This document shows, piece after piece, positions 23,416 through 59,679 of a stretch of 64,000 bases of DNA. The position numbers and the translations under genes are program-made. Each line of letters opens with the position of its first letter. The stretch's first letter is position 1. The stretch is from Chloroflexi bacterium TSY (lineage in GTDB: Bacteria > Chloroflexota > Anaerolineae > Caldilineales > Caldilineaceae), in contig JAHBNG010000015.1 of NCBI GenBank assembly GCA_019217005.1, positions 111,531 through 175,530 of the forward strand. The letters are read 5' to 3'. The notes under the pieces are model-generated. The model made no database searches, was not told the DNA's origin, and saw only the letters and a list, made by a program, of their open reading frames with translations.

Positions 23416-24618
23416 GTGGCCGAAAACAATGAACCCAAATCTACGTCATCCAAAAAATGGAAAATATGGAAAGTGAGAAATTTCCTGTTCCAAGGCAAAT
23501 TGAAGCAACTCTTTCGCATGCACCTGTTGCTGTTTATAAGCATTGCAATTGGTCTATGGGGCATATATAATCTGTGGCTGGGTGATCAAATTAGCCGTCC
23601 AGAAATCCTCAATCAGCGTCCTGAGACAAGTGCAGATTTTCCTTCAACACCAACAGATACACGTCAATCTGACTACGAAATCATCACGCTCATTCCCCCA
23701 GATACGATTCAGGCGATTGATTCCCCCCAATTTGTAACTGGCACCGAAGCAGACGCCCAATATCAGGACGACGAGTTGGTCATTGGCATCGAGTTACATG
23801 ACGATGCCCGTGCCTACTCGATTCCCTTTTTGAGCCGGCATGAAATTGTGAACGATGTCGTGGGAGGCGAACCCATTGCTGTCACGTGGTGACCGCTTTG
23901 CTATACGGGCATAAACTATGCCCGTCACGTTGAGTATGAAAACAGGTCACGGATACTGACCTTTGGCGTGAGTGGTAAGCTCATCATGAATGTCCTGGTT
24001 ATGTTTGACCGCCAGACGAATACCTTATGGAGCCAACTATTGGGAGAAGCGGTCGAGGGGCCACTGGCAGGAGCAAGTTTAACGCCAGTGGCATCGCTGC
24101 AAACGACTTGGGGTCAGTGGAAAGAGCTTCATCCCGAAACCAAAGCACTCGTTACGAACGGCAAAGGCGCAACCGATCCCTACGCCGAGTATTACAACAA
24201 CGATTTTACTGGAGCGTCCGATGAGACACATCTGGATACGCGATTGCCGCGCAAGGCGCTGGTGACGGGCGCGGTTGTGGCGGGACAAGCTGTTGCTTAC
24301 GACCGCACCACTTTGCGCAAAGCGCAGATTGTGAACGACACAGTCAATGACGTGCCACTGCTGATCCTCTTCGATCCAGAGACAGCAACTTCCCTTGTCT
24401 TTGAACGGAGGGTTGGGGAACGGACTCTGACGTTTCGCCGAGGAGCGGAGAGACTCGAATTTCTTGACAATGAAACCGAATCGACCTGGTTTCTGCTTAC
24501 GGGCAGGGCGATTGCGGGCGAACTTTCAGGAACTACGCTCGCTCGGATTCCCAGCACCTCGGCTTTCTGGTTTGGCTGGAAAGACTGGTATCCGAAGACG
24601 TTGGTATATGGGGAATAA
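23416..24618 (+). CDS. DUF3179 membrane-anchored protein, candidate selenoprotein (in-frame UGA)
   Basis: A single frame of about 400 codons runs from the GTG at 23416 to the TAA at 24616, broken only by TGA at 23890-23892. An N-terminal membrane anchor (LLLFISIAIGLWGIY) is followed by the DUF3179 domain. The TGA falls between PIAVTW and PLCYTG, exactly where the family has the first Cys of its C-P-L-C motif (VTYCPLC). The frame continues without other damage: TFGVSGKL, MFDRQTNTLWSQLLGEAVEGPLAG and AFWFGWKDWYP. A perfect hairpin starts 12 bases after the TGA. I infer that UGA encodes selenocysteine. A plain nonsense mutation is the alternative. No sel genes are in the window. Confidence 0.72.
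23890..23925 (+). promoter_or_regulatory. candidate bacterial SECIS element
   Basis: TGA at 23890-23892 is followed after 12 bases by ACGGGCATA-AAC-TATGCCCGT (23905-23925), a perfect 9-bp stem with a three-base loop. The loop begins 21 bases after the UGA, inside the 16-37 base spacing usual for bacterial SECIS. The loop has no guanine, which departs from the E. coli-type consensus. Confidence 0.55.
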
Positions 24619-24627
24619 GAAAATGTG

Positions 24628-24812
24628 ACAGTGTGTCCCAAAATGTGTAAGGCTTTTCCAACAATTAAAATCCCTAATTTGATCTGGAAAAGCTCAAGCC
24701 ATTCCAGAGAAATCGACTTGGCAAATTCGAGATTTATTTCTCCGGAATGGCCTAAATGGGAACCGCTTAGTCAGAGAGCCTGCTCTATTTACACACTTTG
24801 TGGTACACACCC
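24628..24812 (+). repeat. MITE family A, copy 5, interrupted by a second element
   Basis: Left end ACAGTGTGTCCCAAAATGTG and right end CACTTTGTGGTACACACCC match family A. The copy is split after TGTGTAA by a 102-bp insert (24651-24752). Removing the insert with one TAA restores the family sequence TGTGTAAATGG. Confidence 0.82.
24651..24752. repeat. nested double-hairpin element inside MITE A
   Basis: The insert consists of two stem-loops: GGCTTTTCCA with TGGAAAAGC, and GCCATTCCAGAGAAAT with ATTTCTCCGGAATGGC. It is flanked by TAA on both sides (24648-24650 and 24753-24755), a likely 3-bp target duplication. No second copy was seen in this window. Confidence 0.6.
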
Positions 24813-26675: not shown

Positions 26676-26738
26676 AAGAACGAATGCCCTAGCTTGATTG
26701 AAATTAGGTTTAAATTTATCAGGAGTCAAGACAACGTA

Positions 26739-27498
26739 ATGAAACGCAAAGTTCTACTAACTGGTGCTGCAGGTCGCATCGGTCACTTTCTGACGAATCA
26801 GTGGAAAGAACGGTATGATCTTCATTTAACCGACATTCGTAGACCGGATGAGACGTTTGGGTTTCCCTTTTCTGAGACAAATTTGACCAACTACGATGAT
26901 CTTGCACCGCTCTGTTCAGGGATCGACACAGTGGTCCATATGGGAGCGGATCCAAGTATGGAAGCGCCTTGGGAAAGTTTGTTGCCGAACAATGTCATTG
27001 GTACGTACAATGCCTTCGAAGCTGCACACCAAGCCGGTTGCCGACGTATTATCTTTGCGAGTAGCGTCAATGCTGTCTATGGCTATAATTGATGTCCAAG
27101 TGCATACCAGCATGCCCATCTACCCCATTAACCTCTACGGTGCGACAAAATGTTGGGGTGAAGCCGTGGCCCGCTACTACTCGCACACGCATGGTCTTTC
27201 TGCTATCTGTCTGCGTTTTGGTGCAGTATCGGAGCGGCCAAATAGCTCTATATATCGGGATCGTTACAACATCAATCACCACTATATTGACATTATCCTC
27301 ACGATGGAGGATCTGACTGCTCTCGTGACAAAGAGCATTGAAGCACCGGACGAACTGGACTTTGCCGTCTATCATGGGGTGTCGAATAATCGTTGGAAAC
27401 GGCTCGACATTAGCAACGCGCGTGAAGAGATTGGATATGCACCCAAAGACGATGCAATTGATATTTCCTTAACCTGGTCACACCAGAATCAAGAGTGA
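26739..27498 (+). pseudogene. NAD-dependent epimerase/dehydratase (uronate-dehydrogenase-like), frameshifted
   Basis: The first part (26739-27092) has the Rossmann motif TGAAGRIGHFL, then DTVVHMGADPSME and SSVNAVYGY. It stops at TGA 27090-27092, and the family sequence resumes in another frame as DVQVHTSMPIYPINLYGATKCWGEA, which contains the catalytic Y-x3-K, and runs to 27498. A single one-base shift (one extra or two missing) near 27088 explains the break. AGGAG precedes the ATG. Sequencing error cannot be excluded because both halves are otherwise well preserved. It follows the two esterase-like genes and may have acted on sugar acids. Confidence 0.82.
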
Positions 27499-48692: not shown

Positions 48693-49673
48693 TCAACCGC
48701 CATTTTGCACTCTGCGGATTTCATCACTAATCGCCGGCACAACTTCATGCAGGTCACCGATCACGGCGTAATCAGCCTTGGCGAGGATTGGTGCTTCAGG
48801 ATCCGTGTTGATGACCAATATCTGCTTGGAACCTTTACAGCCCGCATAGTGTTGAATTGCACCACTGATTCCACAGGCTATGTAGAGATCGGGGGTCACG
48901 CGTGCACCCGTTTGACCAACCTGATCTGCATGGGGACGCCACCCCTCATTTGTCACGGCACGGGAACAGCCAACGGCGCCATTGAGCAAGGTCGCCAATT
49001 CCTCTAAACTTTCGAAGCCTTCTGTGCTGCCCACACCACGTCCGCCGCTGACCACAACAGGGGCATCCGTGAGCGATACTTTGTCGCTGTCAGGCTGGAC
49101 GCGATCGGTGATGCGGACACGGAGATCCTTCTCAGAAATGTCGGGTGTCATCTCCTCAATGGTAAGCTCTGGTGGGGAATCTACTTCTGTCGGAACAACA
49201 GCCAGAGGTGCCACCGACAATAGTTTTGTCTCTCCTGAAAGCAATGCTTCCTCCAGCAGGCTGCCACCCCAGCGCACGCGGGTCACCTCATACTGATCAT
49301 CTCCGGGTTTTATGTCTATGCAGTTAGCCGCCATTGGCAAATCTTTCAGAGCGGCTAAGTGAGCCAGCACCTCATTGCCTCGTTCGCTGCCTGGTGCCAA
49401 GACAGCCTTGGGCGGAGCATTTTCCATCACTTGCATAACACTGCGTGCCCAAGCCGCCGGCGCAAAATCATCAAGCTGTGCATGTTGAATCAGATGCACC
49501 TTTGAGACGCCGTAGGTGACCAACCTATCGGCGAATCCGCGACCACTCTCACCTACGATAAGGGCTTCCAAGCCACAGCCCAAGTCAGCAGCAAGACCGC
49601 GGGCCAACGTCAACATCTCGAACGACTGTTCATTGATATTGCCGCGGTCATGATCAATCAATCCGAATATCAT
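48693..49673 (-). CDS. etfA: electron transfer flavoprotein, alpha subunit
   Basis: The 326-aa product has the EtfA C-terminal FAD domain: VVSGGRGVGSTEGF, ADQVGQTGARVTPDLYIACGISGAIQH and INTDPEAPILAKADYAVIGDLHEVVP. It forms a heterodimer with EtfB, encoded just upstream (gap 2 bases), and passes electrons from dehydrogenases to the membrane quinone pool through ETF-quinone oxidoreductase, which is not seen here. Its place at the end of a methylated-amine gene cluster makes the dimethylglycine-dehydrogenase-like proteins the probable electron donors. Confidence 0.95.
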   Translation of the reverse strand: MIFGLIDHDRGNINEQSFEMLTLARGLAADLGCGLEALIVGESGRGFADRLVTYGVSKVHLIQHAQLDDFAPAAWARSVMQVMENAPPKAVLAPGSERGNEVLAHLAALKDLPMAANCIDIKPGDDQYEVTRVRWGGSLLEEALLSGETKLLSVAPLAVVPTEVDSPPELTIEEMTPDISEKDLRVRITDRVQPDSDKVSLTDAPVVVSGGRGVGSTEGFESLEELATLLNGAVGCSRAVTNEGWRPHADQVGQTGARVTPDLYIACGISGAIQHYAGCKGSKQILVINTDPEAPILAKADYAVIGDLHEVVPAISDEIRRVQNGG

Positions 49674-49675
49674 CG

Positions 49676-50440
49676 TTAAACCATCCCCTGTTCTTTCAGA
49701 ATTTCGACGACTTTGGGCGCAGCCGCGGTACCCTCACCCAGAATCACAACCTCACTATCTTGTTCAACTGGGACCTTGAGCCGAATTTTCTCCAATCCAT
49801 CCTCAATCTGCTGTGGCTCAATCCTTTTGATCTCGGCCTTTTTGGCCCGCAGACGTCCACGCATGGGAGGATAACGTGGCAACGTAATGCCCTCTTTGAC
49901 GGTAAAAACGGCCGGCAAGTCAACCTCAAAAACCTCCCAGCCACCTCCCGCTTCACGTTTGGCAACGGCTTTGCTGTCGTGAATTTCGAGCGCTTTAATG
50001 CCGTTGACGCAAGGCAGATCCAACGCATGGGCCACACGGATACCAATCTGATAGCCACCTGAATCAGCCGACTCGTTGCCAAAGAGCAGTAGATCAAAAT
50101 CATGGCCAGCATCTGATTCTGCTTGAATCGTCTCAACAATTGCTCTGGCCGTTGCCCTTGGTCCCCAGTCACGACCATCTGTCTCCAACATAATTGCGTC
50201 CGTCATCCCCATCGCCATTGCGTAACGAAGCTGCTCGTCCGCTTCCATGGGGCCAAGGGTTAGGACGGTTGCATTGCCGCCATGTTCTTCAATCAATTGG
50301 ATAGCTGCTTCTACCGCACATTCCTCATGGGGGCTAACCGCAAAGCCCAAGTGACGGGTGTTCAGATCCCGTTCATCGTCAGTCAAGACCATGCGTGCGC
50401 CTGGAGCAGGGACACGTTTGACGCATACGAGTATGTTCAT
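49676..50440 (-). CDS. etfB: electron transfer flavoprotein, beta subunit
   Basis: The 254-aa product starts MNILVCVKRVPAPG, the characteristic EtfB start, and has NTRHLGFAVSPHEECAVEAA, LLFGNESADSGGYQIGIRVA and LPAVFTVKEGITLPRYPPMRGRLRAK, the AMP-binding and partner-recognition regions. The stop is followed two bases later by the etfA start, so the two are coupled. It follows a dimethylglycine-dehydrogenase-like gene by 32 bases on the same strand. Confidence 0.95.
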   Translation of the reverse strand: MNILVCVKRVPAPGARMVLTDDERDLNTRHLGFAVSPHEECAVEAAIQLIEEHGGNATVLTLGPMEADEQLRYAMAMGMTDAIMLETDGRDWGPRATARAIVETIQAESDAGHDFDLLLFGNESADSGGYQIGIRVAHALDLPCVNGIKALEIHDSKAVAKREAGGGWEVFEVDLPAVFTVKEGITLPRYPPMRGRLRAKKAEIKRIEPQQIEDGLEKIRLKVPVEQDSEVVILGEGTAAAPKVVEILKEQGMV

Positions 50441-50472
50441 TTTTTCCCTTCATCGTGAAAAATCTGCAAAAC

Positions 50473-52989
50473 TTAATTCTTCATCCTCTCATCGCGCGGA
50501 TCAAACAACGGCCTACTCCCTACAACCGCAACCTGTACCGGATATTGTTCCCCCAAATACTCGACCAATAACTCTGTCCCAACTTCGGCCTGTGCGGGCG
50601 GTAGATAAGCCATCAGCAAGTGCTTGCCAATTGATGGTCCCGATCCTGCGCTCGTTACATAGGAACGCCGCCCCTTGGCATCTTCAATTGGTTTGCCGTC
50701 GAGGGTCAGAATTGGTTCGTTGCCCAACATGTATCGCTTTTCGCCAGATGAAGATCGGTTGTCCTCAACGGTGAGCGTACAGAGAATCGCAGCGGGATCT
50801 GCAGCGCGCGCGGCTAGATATGCTTGTTTGCCAATAAAATCCTGTGACTTGACTTTTTTGCGTGCCAGTCCAGCCTCCACTGGGTTGTACTCCGACTCGA
50901 GCTCCAAACCAAAGGCGCGATAGCCTTTTTCGATCCGCGCGGTGGTTCCATATACACCAATCCCAACTGGTGCAACCCCATGCGGCTGACCAGCTTCCCA
51001 AAGCAGATCCCACAAAAACCTGCCCTGCTCGAAGTTTGTATAGAGCTCCCAGCCCAGCTCGCCAACATATGAAATACGGAAAGCCAGCGTAAGAATTTGA
51101 CCGATCTGAATCGCCTTGACAGAACCGTAGGGGAAGCCCTCATGGGAGACATCATCCTCGGTGATCGATTCTAATACTTTGCGCGCATGAGGCCCCCACA
51201 GACCGATGGTGCAGAGTCCTGAACTGCGGTCTGTCAGATGAACGGAGCCATCGCTGGGAAGATGGTCGGTAAACCACTTCTTATCAATATTGCCGGTCGC
51301 ACCTCCTGTGACAATGCGGAAGTAATGTTCATGCAACCGCATGATTGTCAAATCACTTTTAAAGCCTCCATGCGGGTTGAGCAAGGGCGTATAGACGGCT
51401 CGACCAACGGGTACGTTCATCTGGTTGACGACCATTTTCTGTAAGTAGCCCAATGCCCCTGGACCCCCCACGTCGAAAATGCTGAAAGCCGTCAGGTCAA
51501 CCATGCCAACCCGGTCACGCATGGCCAAATGCTCGGCGTTGATGATGGGCGACCACCAGCGTGAATCCCACTCTGCCATACGGGGCATAACTTGAGCGCC
51601 ATACTCATCTAGCAAGCCTTTGTTCGATTCGTACCATTGGGGTCGCTCCCAACCGGCCGTCTCAAAATAAACAGCCCCCAATGCCTCGGTTCGTGCGTGG
51701 AAGGGGCTGAGCCGTACGTTGCGCGAAGACGCCCACTGTTCAAAAGGATGGATGATGCTGTACATTTTGTTGAACGATTCAGAGGTACGAGCAATGATGT
51801 GGGCCTTTGAGCTGTTGTGATCGTAGAAGCGCGCAACATCTGATCCGGTGACATCCACCTCTGGTGTACCGTCGGTCATCCATTCGGCCACGGCGCGGGC
51901 AAATCCCGGACCTTCCTTAATCCAGATGGCATTGGCCGACCACAGATTCTTGACGTCTGGCACCTCGCCGATGATCGGGCCACCATCCGGCGTCAACGAC
52001 ATGAGACCGTTGATGGCGTAGCGGATGCCCACATCGGGTCGATCCAAAATGTTGGGCATCAATTCGAGAGCAGTCTCCAAACTCTCATCAAAGTCCTCAT
52101 CGGTAAATGGAAATTCTGTGGGCGTCAACGATGCTTCTTCATTCGTGGGGATGTCGGCTGGTTCGTGGCGCATGTATCTGTGCCTGTAGGAGCCAATCTC
52201 CAGATCGTTGCCGTTTTGTCGCTCGTACATGTTCATGTCGACATCGCGGATCAACGGATACTCGATACCGCCAACGGTTCCTTCAAACATCTCGATGGGG
52301 CCTGCGGTACAGAACTGATGCACAATCGGCGTCAGCGGAATACGCGTCCCCGCCATGCTCGCCAAAACTGGTGCCCAAACGCCGCAGCAGATGACCACAT
52401 ATTCGGTCTCGATGTAGCCTTGATCTGTCTCGACGCCTTTGATCCTACCGCCTGCCACGTCAATATCCTTCACTTCAACATTGGCATGGACACGTAACGC
52501 ATCCTTCTCCATCGCATACTGGCGCATCAGCGTCCCTGCCTCCAGTGGATCGACCACGCCAGCCCGTTTGCTGTAGAACCCGCCCAATACTAAATCAGTA
52601 TTGACAAAGGGCGCTTTCTCCTTGATCTGCTCGGGCGTTAAAATTTCACCATGCTCGCCCCACGATTTCGCAGAGGTCACGCGGCGGGTGATTTCCTGCA
52701 TGCGCTCGGGCGTGCGCGCCAACTCGATACCGCCGACTATTGTGTATGTCTTGAGCTCAATATAGGTTTCAATACTGTCTTGGGTTAGTTTGGTCATCTC
52801 TTTGGAGTGGTCAACCGGAAAGATGAAATTGGATGCATGACCTGTCGAGCCACCTGGATTGGGCAATGGTCCTTTGTCTATCAGCACCATGTCGGTCCAG
52901 CCTTTTTGGGCTAAATGATAAATAAGGCTGTTGCCCACAATACCCGCTCCAATGACGACAACTTTGGCTTTTTTAGGGAATGAACTCAT
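50473..52989 (-). CDS. dimethylglycine dehydrogenase-like flavoprotein with GCV_T domain (paralogue 1)
   Basis: The 838-aa product has an N-terminal FAD-binding DAO domain (VVVIGAGIVGNSLIYHLAQKG), then GGSTGHASNF, whose His matches the residue that binds FAD covalently in dimethylglycine dehydrogenase. An FAO_M domain follows (RNVRLSPFHARTEALGAVYF), and then a C-terminal aminomethyltransferase-like GCV_T domain (GLWGPHARKVLESI, ISYVGELGWELY, NPVEAGLARKKVK). Enzymes of this type demethylate N,N-dimethylglycine, sarcosine or related compounds, transferring the methylene group to tetrahydrofolate and electrons to ETF. The substrate is not determined by sequence. The start overlaps the MazG-like gene by four bases. 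Confidence 0.9.
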   Translation of the reverse strand: MSSFPKKAKVVVIGAGIVGNSLIYHLAQKGWTDMVLIDKGPLPNPGGSTGHASNFIFPVDHSKEMTKLTQDSIETYIELKTYTIVGGIELARTPERMQEITRRVTSAKSWGEHGEILTPEQIKEKAPFVNTDLVLGGFYSKRAGVVDPLEAGTLMRQYAMEKDALRVHANVEVKDIDVAGGRIKGVETDQGYIETEYVVICCGVWAPVLASMAGTRIPLTPIVHQFCTAGPIEMFEGTVGGIEYPLIRDVDMNMYERQNGNDLEIGSYRHRYMRHEPADIPTNEEASLTPTEFPFTDEDFDESLETALELMPNILDRPDVGIRYAINGLMSLTPDGGPIIGEVPDVKNLWSANAIWIKEGPGFARAVAEWMTDGTPEVDVTGSDVARFYDHNSSKAHIIARTSESFNKMYSIIHPFEQWASSRNVRLSPFHARTEALGAVYFETAGWERPQWYESNKGLLDEYGAQVMPRMAEWDSRWWSPIINAEHLAMRDRVGMVDLTAFSIFDVGGPGALGYLQKMVVNQMNVPVGRAVYTPLLNPHGGFKSDLTIMRLHEHYFRIVTGGATGNIDKKWFTDHLPSDGSVHLTDRSSGLCTIGLWGPHARKVLESITEDDVSHEGFPYGSVKAIQIGQILTLAFRISYVGELGWELYTNFEQGRFLWDLLWEAGQPHGVAPVGIGVYGTTARIEKGYRAFGLELESEYNPVEAGLARKKVKSQDFIGKQAYLAARAADPAAILCTLTVEDNRSSSGEKRYMLGNEPILTLDGKPIEDAKGRRSYVTSAGSGPSIGKHLLMAYLPPAQAEVGTELLVEYLGEQYPVQVAVVGSRPLFDPRDERMKN

Positions 52990-54719: not shown

Positions 54720-57242
54720 CTAGATGCGCATCCGCTTATTTTCTGGATCAAAGAGCGAGGTGCTGCCACCATCCGCCACCGCGACCGTCACGGGGTAGTG
54801 CTCGGCCATATACTCGACCAGCAACTTGGTGCCGACTTTGGCATACTCAGGTGGTAGATAAGCAAGTAGAATGTGCTTGCCGACAGAGGGGCCGGTACCG
54901 GCAGTCGTCACATATGAGCAGCGACCATGACGATCAACAATCCCTTTGCCGTCCAAGGTGAGGATTGGCTCTTTCCCCAACATATAGCGCTTGACACCGG
55001 AAGCCGAGGTGTGATCATCCACCGTTAAGGTACAGAGGATGGCCGCGGGGCCTTCTTCACGCGCCTTTAGATAGGCCTCTTTGCCAATGAAGTCCTGCTT
55101 TTTGACCTTGGGCCGCGTCAGACCGGCCTCAACTGGGTTAAACTCACATTCCAACTCATTGCCCATCAACCTGTACCCCTTTTCGATGCGACCTGTGGTG
55201 CCATAGACACCGATACCCGCGGGCACAACACCATGTGCCTGTCCAGCTTCCCAGAGTGTATCCCACAACTTTAACCCATTCTCCACAGATGCATAGATCT
55301 CCCATCCTAATTCACCTACATAGGAGATACGCATCATGCGCGTCCGAACTGTGCCGATCGTGACTTCCTTTGTTGTGCCGTAGGGGAAGCCCTCATGGGA
55401 GACATCGTCCAACGTGACGGACTCCACAATGTCTCGCGCTTTGGGGCCCCACAGACCAATCGTGCAGATGGCCGTGCTCCGGTCCTCGAAGTGAACAGAG
55501 CCGTCTCCAGGCAGATGGCTCTTGAACCAATGCATGTCACGTCCCCAATCTGCGCCACCCGTAACAATGCGGAAGCGGTTTTTGCCAATCCGCATAATGG
55601 TCAGGTCCGAGCGGAAGCCGCCATTTGGATCCAAGATTGGCGTGTAAACAGCGCGACCAACCTTAACGTTCATCTGGTTCATGGCCATTTTTTGCATGTA
55701 GTCGAGCGCACCGGGGCCGGTCACGTCGAAGACAGCAAAGGCAGTCAAATCAATCATCGCGGCACGTTTGCGCATGGCCAAATGCTCGGCATGGATGATG
55801 GGTGACCACCAGCGCGAATCCCACTCATGCTCTCGATTCATCACCCGGTCGCCAAATTCCTCCAGCAATGGAGTGTTTGATTCATACCATTGTGGGCGCT
55901 CCCAGCCAGCCACCTCAAAGAAGACGGCGCCCAATCCCTGCTCGCGTACATAAAAGGGGCTGACGCGCACGTTCCGATTGGTGGACCACTGTTCAGCTGG
56001 ATGTACGATGCCATAGGTTTTGTTATAGCCTTCCGAGGTGCGTGCGTCAACGTGGAGCTTGGTGCGGGCATGGTCGGCAAAACGGGCGATATCGGACGAG
56101 TGTGGGTCGATCTCGGAATAGCCATTGGTCATCCATTCGGCGATCATACGACCAACGCCGGGACCTTCCTTGATCCAAACTGCGGCAGCCGACCAGAGAT
56201 TCTTGACCTCGACTGTCTCTCCCAAAATTGGGGCACCATCAGGTGTCAGTGAAAGCAGTCCGTTGATGGCATAGCGTACACCTACACGATCATCGCCCAG
56301 GATATCCGGCATTAACTCGAGTGCCTGTTCCAGTTGGGGATCGAAATCATCTTCGGTAAAGGGCATCTCCGTTGGCGAGAGAGACGCCTCTTCGATTGAA
56401 GGAATTTCATCTGGCTCATATAATATTGGTCGGTGAGCGTAGGAGCCAACCTCCATGTCGCTGCCATGTTGCCGTTCGTAACAGAAAGTGTCCATGTCGC
56501 GGACGATGGGGTACTCGATCTCACCCACCGTCTTCTCGAAAAGAGGAATTGAACCGACGCTGATCATCTGGTGAACAGCGGGCGTCAGCGGAATGGTGGC
56601 TCCCGCCATGCGAGCGATCTGTGGACTCCACACACCACAGGCAATCACGACATAGTTGGTTTCGATGATGCCTTTGGCCGTTTCGACGCTCTTGATCTGG
56701 CCATCTTCAACACCTAAATCGTAGATCTCCGTGTTGGCGAAGACTTGAAGAGCGCCCTGATTCATTGCATATTCGCGCATGAGCGTCCCTGCGCGCAACG
56801 AGTCCACCACACCCACTGATGGCGTGTACCAGCCTCCAAGGATTACATCCTCATCGATATAGGGGATCAATTTCTTGACCTGCTCGACTGATATCAGCTC
56901 AGATTCGACACCCCAAGATTTGGCGGAAGCCCGGCGGCGACGCAACTCTTCCATGCGTTCTTCTGTGCGGGCAATCTCGATGCCGCCACATTCCGTGAAG
57001 ACGCCAAGCTCTTTGTACTGTTTCATGCTGTCGAGCGTTAGGAGCGCCATCTCTTTGGAGTGATCGACCGGAAAGATAAAATTCGAAGCATGGCCTGTCG
57101 AACCACCTGGATTGGGGAGGGGACCCTTGTCCAAAAGAACTATGTCGGTCCAACCTAATTTGGCGAGATGGTAGACAACGCAGTTGCCCACAATGCCTGC
57201 ACCAATGATCACGACATTGGCATGCTGTGGGAATCCACTCAT
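54720..57242 (-). CDS. dimethylglycine dehydrogenase-like flavoprotein with GCV_T domain (paralogue 2)
   Basis: The 840-aa product has the same architecture as the protein at 50473 (FAD DAO domain with GAGIVGNCVVYHLAKLG and GGSTGHASNF, FAO_M, GCV_T ending NPVEAGLTRPKVKKQ). The two are close paralogues, clearly alike along their whole length. Keeping two suggests different N-methyl substrates. It is transcribed in the same direction as, and upstream of, the sarcosine-oxidase-like gene. GGAGCAAAGTAA lies before the ATG. Both likely use ETF as acceptor. Confidence 0.9.
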   Translation of the reverse strand: MSGFPQHANVVIIGAGIVGNCVVYHLAKLGWTDIVLLDKGPLPNPGGSTGHASNFIFPVDHSKEMALLTLDSMKQYKELGVFTECGGIEIARTEERMEELRRRRASAKSWGVESELISVEQVKKLIPYIDEDVILGGWYTPSVGVVDSLRAGTLMREYAMNQGALQVFANTEIYDLGVEDGQIKSVETAKGIIETNYVVIACGVWSPQIARMAGATIPLTPAVHQMISVGSIPLFEKTVGEIEYPIVRDMDTFCYERQHGSDMEVGSYAHRPILYEPDEIPSIEEASLSPTEMPFTEDDFDPQLEQALELMPDILGDDRVGVRYAINGLLSLTPDGAPILGETVEVKNLWSAAAVWIKEGPGVGRMIAEWMTNGYSEIDPHSSDIARFADHARTKLHVDARTSEGYNKTYGIVHPAEQWSTNRNVRVSPFYVREQGLGAVFFEVAGWERPQWYESNTPLLEEFGDRVMNREHEWDSRWWSPIIHAEHLAMRKRAAMIDLTAFAVFDVTGPGALDYMQKMAMNQMNVKVGRAVYTPILDPNGGFRSDLTIMRIGKNRFRIVTGGADWGRDMHWFKSHLPGDGSVHFEDRSTAICTIGLWGPKARDIVESVTLDDVSHEGFPYGTTKEVTIGTVRTRMMRISYVGELGWEIYASVENGLKLWDTLWEAGQAHGVVPAGIGVYGTTGRIEKGYRLMGNELECEFNPVEAGLTRPKVKKQDFIGKEAYLKAREEGPAAILCTLTVDDHTSASGVKRYMLGKEPILTLDGKGIVDRHGRCSYVTTAGTGPSVGKHILLAYLPPEYAKVGTKLLVEYMAEHYPVTVAVADGGSTSLFDPENKRMRI

Positions 57243-57733: not shown

Positions 57734-58138
57734 CTATGAATTTAATGGTGGAATTAATCCACGGCGAACTGCCTCCGCCAGTCCTTCTGATTTGCGCAAG
57801 AGTCCGATTCGATAGATTTGCATAAGCGCAATTAATTCATATTGTTCAGGTATATTCAGATTTTTTTGTTTCCCTTTGGCTTGAAGATGACTAAGTCGCT
57901 CATCTTGTATTTCAGTCATGGTCATATGCGCCAATTCCAAAACCTCATCATCGCTTAGGTCAGATACATCTTTGGAGTAGCCATCATAGGGCAGATCATC
58001 AAGGATAGGCCATAAATCATCCATGATTTCCAGCTTATCAGCTAAAACATCTTCAACACTCTGTTTTGTTAGTCGTCCCAACTGTGCAGCGTGTTCAAGA
58101 ACTGTATTCGGTACTGATAAGGTCACCTCGACATTCAT
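57734..58138 (-). CDS. hypothetical protein, partner of HNH gene
   Basis: The 134-aa product begins MNVEVTLSVPNTVLEHAAQLG and is mostly helical and acidic in its middle (PYDGYSKDVSDLSDDEVLELA). The last part (YELIALMQIYRIGLLRKSEGLAEAVRRGLIPPL) resembles short proteins encoded next to HNH nucleases in cyanobacteria and Chloroflexota. No catalytic motif is visible. It overlaps the mttB-like gene by four bases and the HNH gene by almost zero spacing, so both have been captured into this operon. Confidence 0.6.
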   Translation of the reverse strand: MNVEVTLSVPNTVLEHAAQLGRLTKQSVEDVLADKLEIMDDLWPILDDLPYDGYSKDVSDLSDDEVLELAHMTMTEIQDERLSHLQAKGKQKNLNIPEQYELIALMQIYRIGLLRKSEGLAEAVRRGLIPPLNS

Positions 58139-59679
58139 TGTTTCCCCCCTTGAGCAAACCCAAGTGCTGTCTTTCGTTCTTTCATAAAATCTTGTAACTG
58201 GCTATCAATTGATGCATCCAACGGCGGTGCCTCATATACTTCCAACATCGCCTTCCACTTCTTATTGGCACGCGTCACCGTATCTTCACTGCCATTGATC
58301 ACCCATTGCTCATAGGCATCATAATCCATGATTTCTGCTCGGTGAAACGCATCTCGAAAATGACGCATGGTATGTTGCGTGCCCAAGAAGTGACCGCCTG
58401 CCTCCACCTCTTCGAAGGCATCCAGGGCAAACCCTTCGTCTGAAAAATCGATCCCTCGTGCCCAATAGTGGTACATGCCCAATAACTCACAATCAATGAC
58501 AAATTTTTCATATCCCGAGACGAGTCCACTCTCCAGCCAGCCTGCTGCATGGAGAATAAAGTTCGTCTGAGCCTGGACGGCCGGCATCATGACCTGCACC
58601 GACTCATAGCCAGCCTGGGCATCGGGTATTTTCGAGCTGGAGAAGGTGCCACCGGTGCGGAAGGGTAGGTTGTAGCGGCGCGCCATTTGCGCAACAGCCA
58701 ACATGGTTAGCTGACTGGAGGGTGAGCCAAACACAGTGGCACCGCTTTGTAAGTCCAGATTAGTCATAAATGAGCCGTAAACGACAGGACAGCCCGGTTC
58801 TACCATTTGCACAAAGGCAATGCCCGACAAGGCTTCGGCATTCTGCAATGCCAGAGTCCCCGCGATGCTAGCAGGGGACATTGCGCCTGCCATGAGAAAC
58901 GGCGTAATAATCATCGCCTGTCGGGCGCGCGCATAGACCTTCATGCAGCCCAACATCCGCTCATCATGTCGACGGGGGCTGCTCACGTTGATGAGCGACG
59001 TCATGGCAGGATTCTTGCGTATGTTCTCTTTGCCAAAGAGAATCTCACACATTTGCACACTATCGGCCGCGTTCTCTGGCTCGGTGACGGAGCCCATAAA
59101 GCCTTTGTCACTATACTTGATGTGGGCGTATACCATATCCAGATGGCGAGTTGGAACCGGTTCGTCATTTGGCTCACAAACTGTGCCGCCAGAATGATGG
59201 AGATAGGGACTCATGTACGCAAGCTTGACGAAATTTTGGAAATCTTCCAGCGTTCCCTCGCTGCGTCCTTTATCGGCATCATGAACAAATGGTGGCCCAT
59301 AGACGGGAGCAAAGATCGAGCGATTGCCGCCGAAAATCACGTTGTTGGCCGGATTACGCGCGATTTGCGTATACTCACTTGGTGCTTTGGTGATATACTC
59401 CATGACCAAGGCTTCATCCATGTAAACTATATCGCCTTCGACCCGCGCGCCATGCGACGCCAAAATCTCTCGGGCCTCATCATCATAGAAGGCAATGCCC
59501 AGCCGGGATAGAATATCCATCGATGCATCATGGATTTGCTGAACATGCTCCGCCGAAATCAACTCAAAGCGCGGCACATGATATTGTATTTGAGGAACCC
59601 TTTTTTCTGTCGCCCCGGTAGGACGCTCACGTCGGGCACGTCTGGTTCGTCTTGACGCCCGATCACTCTTTGCATCCAT
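58135..59679 (-). CDS. trimethylamine methyltransferase-superfamily protein (MttB-like, non-pyrrolysine)
   Basis: The 514-aa product belongs to the MttB superfamily: ISAEHVQQIHDASMDILSRLGIAFYD at the start, then FAPVYGPPFVHDADKG, YGSFMTNLDLQSGATVFGSPS and GGHFLGTQHTMRHFRDAFH near the end. No in-frame UAG occurs, so it is the non-pyrrolysine type, whose characterised members demethylate quaternary amines such as glycine betaine with a corrinoid protein. No corrinoid protein or activator is in the window. The neighbouring dimethylglycine-dehydrogenase-like genes fit degradation from trimethylated to dimethylated and monomethylated forms. A basic leader (SRRTRRARRERP) precedes the family domain. 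Confidence 0.88.
   Translation of the reverse strand: MDAKSDRASRRTRRARRERPTGATEKRVPQIQYHVPRFELISAEHVQQIHDASMDILSRLGIAFYDDEAREILASHGARVEGDIVYMDEALVMEYITKAPSEYTQIARNPANNVIFGGNRSIFAPVYGPPFVHDADKGRSEGTLEDFQNFVKLAYMSPYLHHSGGTVCEPNDEPVPTRHLDMVYAHIKYSDKGFMGSVTEPENAADSVQMCEILFGKENIRKNPAMTSLINVSSPRRHDERMLGCMKVYARARQAMIITPFLMAGAMSPASIAGTLALQNAEALSGIAFVQMVEPGCPVVYGSFMTNLDLQSGATVFGSPSSQLTMLAVAQMARRYNLPFRTGGTFSSSKIPDAQAGYESVQVMMPAVQAQTNFILHAAGWLESGLVSGYEKFVIDCELLGMYHYWARGIDFSDEGFALDAFEEVEAGGHFLGTQHTMRHFRDAFHRAEIMDYDAYEQWVINGSEDTVTRANKKWKAMLEVYEAPPLDASIDSQLQDFMKERKTALGFAQGGKQ

Follow-up and report, generated by a model that had tools for sequence, protein, structure and literature searches.

The UGA at positions 23890-23892 of the window, the whole 64-kb stretch of DNA analysed here, is a selenocysteine (Sec) codon of a DUF3179 gene according to the explanation that fits best, in which the loop of the adjacent hairpin has been changed, likeliest by inversion, and Sec insertion has probably been weakened or lately lost; we place this explanation as a whole at a probability of about 0.8. 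The codon, its reading frame, the conserved hairpin, the Sec machinery of related genomes and the change of loop were all found by computation. The hairpin immediately downstream would let SelB and Sec-tRNA read the UGA in this lineage, setting Sec159 beside Cys162 to form a U-x-x-C redox pair within the first of two repeats with a predicted Rieske-like fold. In the window copy the stem is complete and the loop would have been altered from a G-first triplet to AAC; without Sec insertion the product would stop at residue 158, ahead of the conserved Cys.

The DUF3179 gene and its in-frame UGA

The DUF3179 frame runs from a GTG at 23416 to a TAA ending at 24618 on the forward strand and encodes 400 residues when the UGA is read through, the TGA at 23890-23892 (+) being its sole internal stop. 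The context of the codon is VTW-UGA-PLC, such that residue 159, the putative Sec, stands at the first Cys of the C-P-L-C motif and converts it to U-P-L-C (23890-23901, +). The Pfam profile PF11376 (DUF3179) matches residues 96-395 (23701-24600, +; E 6e-83) and spans the UGA, with a score of 279.1 bits over the whole frame (cut-off 27), 67 bits 5′ of the UGA and 184 bits 3′ of it. The sequence-only reading had described a 400-codon DUF3179 gene whose lone in-frame stop is a UGA at the first Cys of C-P-L-C, with family sequence intact on both sides; frame, motif and the two partial scores bear this out. A scan against NCBIfam gave no model at E 0.001. An alternative start, the ATG of Met35 at 23518 (+), lies near a long helix predicted at residues 23-56 of the structure model, and the product is probably membrane-anchored.

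Among 63 aligned full-length homologues the column of residue 159 contains Cys in 58, Ser in four and Arg in one, and the second Cys of the motif is kept in all 63. The window protein has one Cys and one Sec in its 400 residues. Ten other frames in the window were obtained with TGA read as Sec, four without a Pfam match and six with one; five of the six gave the same domains when scanned unread and the sixth was an HTH protein, and these candidates were rejected.

Two other regions of the window were recorded. An NAD-dependent epimerase gene (26694-27498, +) is split, Pfam Epimerase positions 1-120 and 132-170 lying in different frames, and the frameshift near 27090 is either real decay or a base error. 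A trimethylamine-methyltransferase-family (MTTB) gene with an open frame lies near two genes with GCV_T and DAO domains and two ETF genes (58138-59679, 48696-52989 and 54723-57242, all -), a group that suggests the use of methylated amines. The aspartate carbamoyltransferase encoded in the window matches named Caldilineaceae, Caldilinea and Chloroflexota proteins at 73-79%, along with one entry from a soil metagenome, and the bacterium is placed in the Chloroflexota, near Caldilineaceae.

The motif codon in related genes

A contig scan found 157 related loci, of which the best 80, all Chloroflexota by title, were kept, so that the counts hold for the nearest relatives. Cys/Sec pairs, which the sequence-only reading had proposed to look for by aligning homologues at the motif, are present: among these best 80 of 157 loci the motif codon is TGA in 77 and Cys in three (L039, L071 and L074). 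Neither TAA nor TAG occurs at the codon in the best 80 of 157 loci or in a second set (L089-L133), which overlaps the first, some of the genes being identical. One locus, L052, has TGA at the motif by inspection and was left out of the counts from the 78-gene alignment. A search of 396 genomes of one class identified 132 with a relative at E 1e-30 or better; among the matches listed, TGA was the only internal stop.

Of the 79 TGA genes, a set that includes the window, 78 contain no further in-frame stop between 70 codons before and 215 codons after the UGA. The remaining gene is the first of two tandem DUF3179 copies (L072:6268 and L072:7052), both with TGA at the motif, in which two more stops fall within 215 codons downstream; random stops elsewhere in the gene, which had been named as a point that would count against recoding, are therefore confined to one of the 79 genes. 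TGA is also the terminator of 25 of the 78 TGA genes with the end in view, and of five of 14 window genes checked, which indicates that the recoding is site-specific and the overall code unchanged.

Both forms can be found together. In L015 a Cys-type DUF3179 gene (5057) lies 1.2 kb ahead of a TGA-type gene (6229) on the same strand, and the genome of L071 (G048), first seen with a Cys DUF3179, also matches the Sec-type pattern of UGA and hairpin at locus L142. Short DUF3179 forms made up 22 of 120 proteins in a first listing, 20 of them beginning at the codon of residue 167, just past the UGA; they made up 119 of 217 in a second listing, which was biased towards them by its query and length window. 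No DUF3179 relative was found on viral contigs. No cluster of neighbouring genes was present at more than 12 of 76 loci, apart from two centred on DUF3179 itself (same strand and antisense ORFs).

A conserved hairpin downstream of the UGA

A SECIS-type hairpin was identified by folding and with a covariance model, its 5′ arm at 23905-23913 (+) and its 3′ arm at 23917-23925 (+). The arms form the perfect 9-bp stem, starting 12 bases past the UGA, that had been noted from the sequence, and both position and length are confirmed. The fold of 23903-23927 has an energy of -13.2 kcal/mol (z -5.1), which none of 200 shuffles matched. The size rule for bacterial SECIS elements, as given in the part of a 2026 review that treats them (PMC13188914), is a stem of 4-16 bp, a loop of 3-9 nt, a spacing of 16-37 nt and a minimum free energy of -7.5 kcal/mol or lower; the hairpin, with a 9-bp stem, a 3-nt loop, 21 nt from UGA to loop and -13.2 kcal/mol, lies within all of these.

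Covariation was assessed in an ungapped alignment of 77 relatives' genes (73 distinct rows; window excluded, L052 not in the set). A 7-bp stem is paired in 98.4% of cells, and five of the seven pairs have changes on both sides, counts that are inflated by kinship among the 77 sequences. The covariation score is 0.301 compared with 0.068 for shuffled alignments, and none of 500 shuffles reached 0.301. When the stem was slid along the alignment, only 16-56% of cells were paired, and the Cys genes, which served as a control, retain just two to four of the seven pairs in all seven cases. The covariance model built from the 77 relatives finds the window hairpin at 45.1 bits (E 5e-11), a score to which coding-sequence identity contributes. 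When spacers of 3 and 5 nt were tried across the 78 genes, the perfect arms proved longest in the window, at 9 bp around a 3-nt spacer.

A scan of the window against Rfam gave no match above cut-off; three weak matches fell at the hairpin site, none of them a SECIS. About 65 bases past the gene an inverted repeat, CTGGAA/TTCCAG (24684-24707, +), matches the SECIS model at 9.1 bits (E 0.6) and is perhaps a terminator or due to chance.

The apical loop of the window gene

The apical loop of the hairpin is AAC (23914-23916, +), which encodes Asn167, lacks the otherwise invariant G and, on the opposite strand, reads exactly as a GTT loop. Of 78 aligned genes 77 have G as the second loop base and the window alone does not, and the loop G is also present in L052, outside that alignment. 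Pattern searches in which the loop was left free gave eight matches in five of 400 genomes and 21 in 21 of 393, all 29 with the loop G; at least four of the 29 are genes already counted (G005, G013, G016 and G050). In the column of residue 167 Val is found in 56 of 63 aligned full-length homologues and Asn in none. As the loop G opens this conserved Val codon, protein constraint contributes to its conservation. Ten genes with Gly at the loop codon retain G-G, and the loop Val codon is GTG in 50 of 67 cases, compared with 497 of 1345 (37%) for downstream Val.

The published rule demands a G within loop positions 1-2, and some putative elements fail it, according to the same part of PMC13188914. 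AAC has no G at either position. The sequence-only reading had called the arrangement the standard pattern of Sec recoding; this holds for the Cys/Sec pairs, the covarying hairpin and the Sec machinery in related genomes, and does not hold for the apical loop, whose 3-nt AAC, a point overlooked in that reading, departs from both the family and the published SECIS rule. Judged from this departure, Sec insertion in the window copy has probably been weakened or lately lost, and with the loop rule broken the copy may not be decoded at all.

Reversal of the loop restores the family type. After the hairpin itself, the best covariance-model match in the window is its own minus strand (19.4 bits), because the stem is palindromic and the reversed loop, AGTTT, is of family type and identical to the loop of L073. 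The loop-profile score of the window is -12.0 forward and +1.1 reversed, compared with a mean of +7.1 forward (lowest -1.9) and -18.2 reversed (highest -4.8) for the other genes. Between its perfect arms the spacer reads as the exact reverse complement of the loop found in L073, a putative parental type for this strain. Of 48 triplets that do not begin with G, three (6%) give a Val codon on reversal and six (12.5%) a G[GU] loop.

Selenocysteine machinery in related genomes

SelA, SelB and tRNA-Sec were sought in the genomes of 50 relatives, 47 with a TGA locus and three with a Cys locus, the other 30 loci being left out. SelB was above cut-off in 43 of the 50, tRNA-Sec in 43 (best hits 56-82 bits) and SelA in 45; all three were found in 36 genomes and none in one (G042). 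In 14 control genomes SelB was above cut-off in two, SelA in one and tRNA-Sec in five, and on this last count the tRNA cut-off may be loose. The completeness of the relatives' genomes is not given, and absence from a MAG says little. The 64-kb window contains no tRNA genes, to which little weight is attached.

Predicted fold of the DUF3179 protein

Structure prediction suggests that the DUF3179 region (23701-24600) is a tandem duplication, each half of which is predicted to resemble the Rieske ferredoxin fold. The first repeat, at about residues 118-250 (23767-24165, +), contains U-P-L-C and the second, at about residues 278-400 (24247-24615, +), has neither Cys nor Sec. The best structural matches of each predicted repeat have the Rieske [2Fe-2S] ferredoxin fold; among the best 50 matches listed per structure search none was named thioredoxin. 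The Rieske ligand motif C-x-H-x13-20-C-x2-H is absent from the 400-residue protein.

A reading of U-P-L-C as Rieske box 2 (C-P-x-H), with H142 at a tempting spacing as box 1, was rejected, as the cluster boxes fall later in each repeat. This rests on a profile alignment, which was not significant, and on range arithmetic over the structural matches, with the Rieske ligands at the positions that we take them to occupy. Kinship to Rieske proteins at the level of sequence was likewise rejected: when each repeat was compared by hhalign with 13 Rieske segments from the relatives' genomes, the probabilities were 0.4 and 1.9%. Searches of PDB sequences returned weak, unrelated hits only.

Discussion

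The strongest challenge to a UGA still in use is that it is no longer decoded, the change of loop having ended Sec insertion and left a very young pseudogene or a 158-residue N-terminal product, and we rate this at somewhat below even odds. The window is the one gene of 78 aligned without the loop G and has Asn at a codon that is Val in 56 of 63 homologues and Asn in none; the epimerase gene 2 kb downstream is frameshifted, and the region may contain further decaying genes. A decaying gene is harder to reconcile with an unbroken downstream frame that shares about 50-79% identity with the listed relatives, with a stem whose perfect arms are the longest of the set and with the closest protein, P0241, which differs at a single residue over 210 and retains the same downstream sequence; the SECIS part of PMC13188914, moreover, reports putative bacterial elements outside the rule. 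Selenocysteine could also be dismissed altogether, the UGA being a chance nonsense mutation or the sign of an altered genetic code, which is hardly credible: it is contradicted at family level by TGA at the motif in 77 of 80 loci (best 80 of 157), and TGA terminates 25 of the 78 TGA genes with the end in view and five of 14 window genes checked.

AAC at 23914-23916 could be an error of sequencing or assembly at the hairpin, the true loop having a G. Short inverted repeats are known to give rise to fold-back artefacts, which counts for this reading, as may the frameshift in the nearby gene if it signals base errors. An artefact is nevertheless unlikely in view of P0241, which is encoded on a separate contig of 5,025 bases and starts at MNVL, whereas 104 of the 119 short hits start at the loop codon; on this account the loop codon of P0241 is probably not GTG, and GTT and AAC would both fit. 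Separate base substitutions, tolerated or even preferred by the SelB of the lineage, are doubtful, if less so. GTC loops, two changes from AAC, exist in five of 78 genes, and elements outside the rule are reported in the SECIS part of PMC13188914, but a single event accounts better for two or three neighbouring changes where the site is otherwise fixed and the outcome reverse-complements a family-type loop exactly. Such an event would be a one-step template-switch inversion of the 3-nt spacer within the 9-bp inverted repeat. Since chance reversal of a random triplet without an initial G gives a Val codon or a G[GU] loop in 6-13% of cases, we put this inversion, suggested by the sequence comparisons, at about even odds. 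P0001 and P0242 (78-79% identical), both predicted to start at the loop codon (P0002, at 77%, does not start there), suggest that the ancestor perhaps had GTG, in which case a GTT would have been needed before the inversion.

SECIS hairpins are near-perfect inverted repeats with tiny spacers and could therefore be hotspots for such flips. It would be a long shot to suppose that they are reversible template-switch hotspots in general and that the window gene is in the off position, one flip having turned over the loop that SelB reads, with the stem left as it was, and shut down selenoprotein synthesis, which a second flip would restore, as a heritable recoding switch.

That DUF3179 can contain Sec is already known; the loop anomaly and the likeness of fold are new here. 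DUF3179 is listed as a UxxC/T selenoprotein family in the relevant parts of PMC13188914 and PMC9312934, the former citing Zhang and Gladyshev 2007 for the family (Olavius algarvensis symbiont), and the ‘(seleno)protein’ label that the sequence-only reading mentioned for DUF3179 was found on one annotated plasmid entry. Neither Chloroflexi nor Chloroflexota is named in the main text of PMC13188914 or PMC9312934, and the 2006 count in PMC1794560, from the portion of that paper bearing on the phylum, was three selenoproteins for the Chloroflexi. In a limited literature collection, judged mostly from listings, nothing was found that ties DUF3179 to Chloroflexota, a SECIS loop to inversion or a Rieske fold to a Sec protein, and by title no study devoted to a DUF3179 protein.

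Nearly all of the nearest Chloroflexota DUF3179 genes encode selenoproteins and are split in two by gene callers, and a covariation-tested SECIS can now be given for the family. If the change of loop is real, the window gene would be a natural test both of the need for the loop G in bacterial Sec insertion and of flips of SECIS spacers, while the prediction of Rieske-like folds in tandem, together with a Sec/Cys pair, offers a structural clue to DUF3179.

Compared with the bacterial SECIS consensus set out in section 5 of PMC13188914, the window hairpin is alike in its 3-nt loop, 9-bp stem, 21-nt spacing and energy below -7.5 kcal/mol and unlike in having no G at loop positions 1-2. Template-switch inversions are described, in the parts of the two papers that concern hairpin spacers, as exact spacer inversions in yeast genes, with changes of 2-5 bp, some of them reversible, and arms of more than 9 bp only (PMC8604942), and as loop inversions in rRNA hairpins, bacteria included, complete ones being very rare (PMC8794818). 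The window resembles these in that a short spacer flanked by perfect arms would have been exchanged for its exact reverse complement, with one amino acid altered; it differs in that the spacer is a SECIS-type loop, the arms are 9 bp compared with the longer ones of yeast, and the ancestor is unobserved. Each repeat is predicted to resemble the Rieske [2Fe-2S] ferredoxins in fold, whereas DUF3179 lacks C-x-H ... C-x2-H and has instead a Sec/Cys pair, which by range arithmetic lies off the ligand positions. The DUF3179 selenoproteins treated in the published accounts belong to the same family and have Sec at the first Cys of C-x-x-C, as here; what sets the present case apart is that the genes are from Chloroflexota, that the Sec form predominates in the 80 nearest loci and that the loop of the window gene is aberrant.
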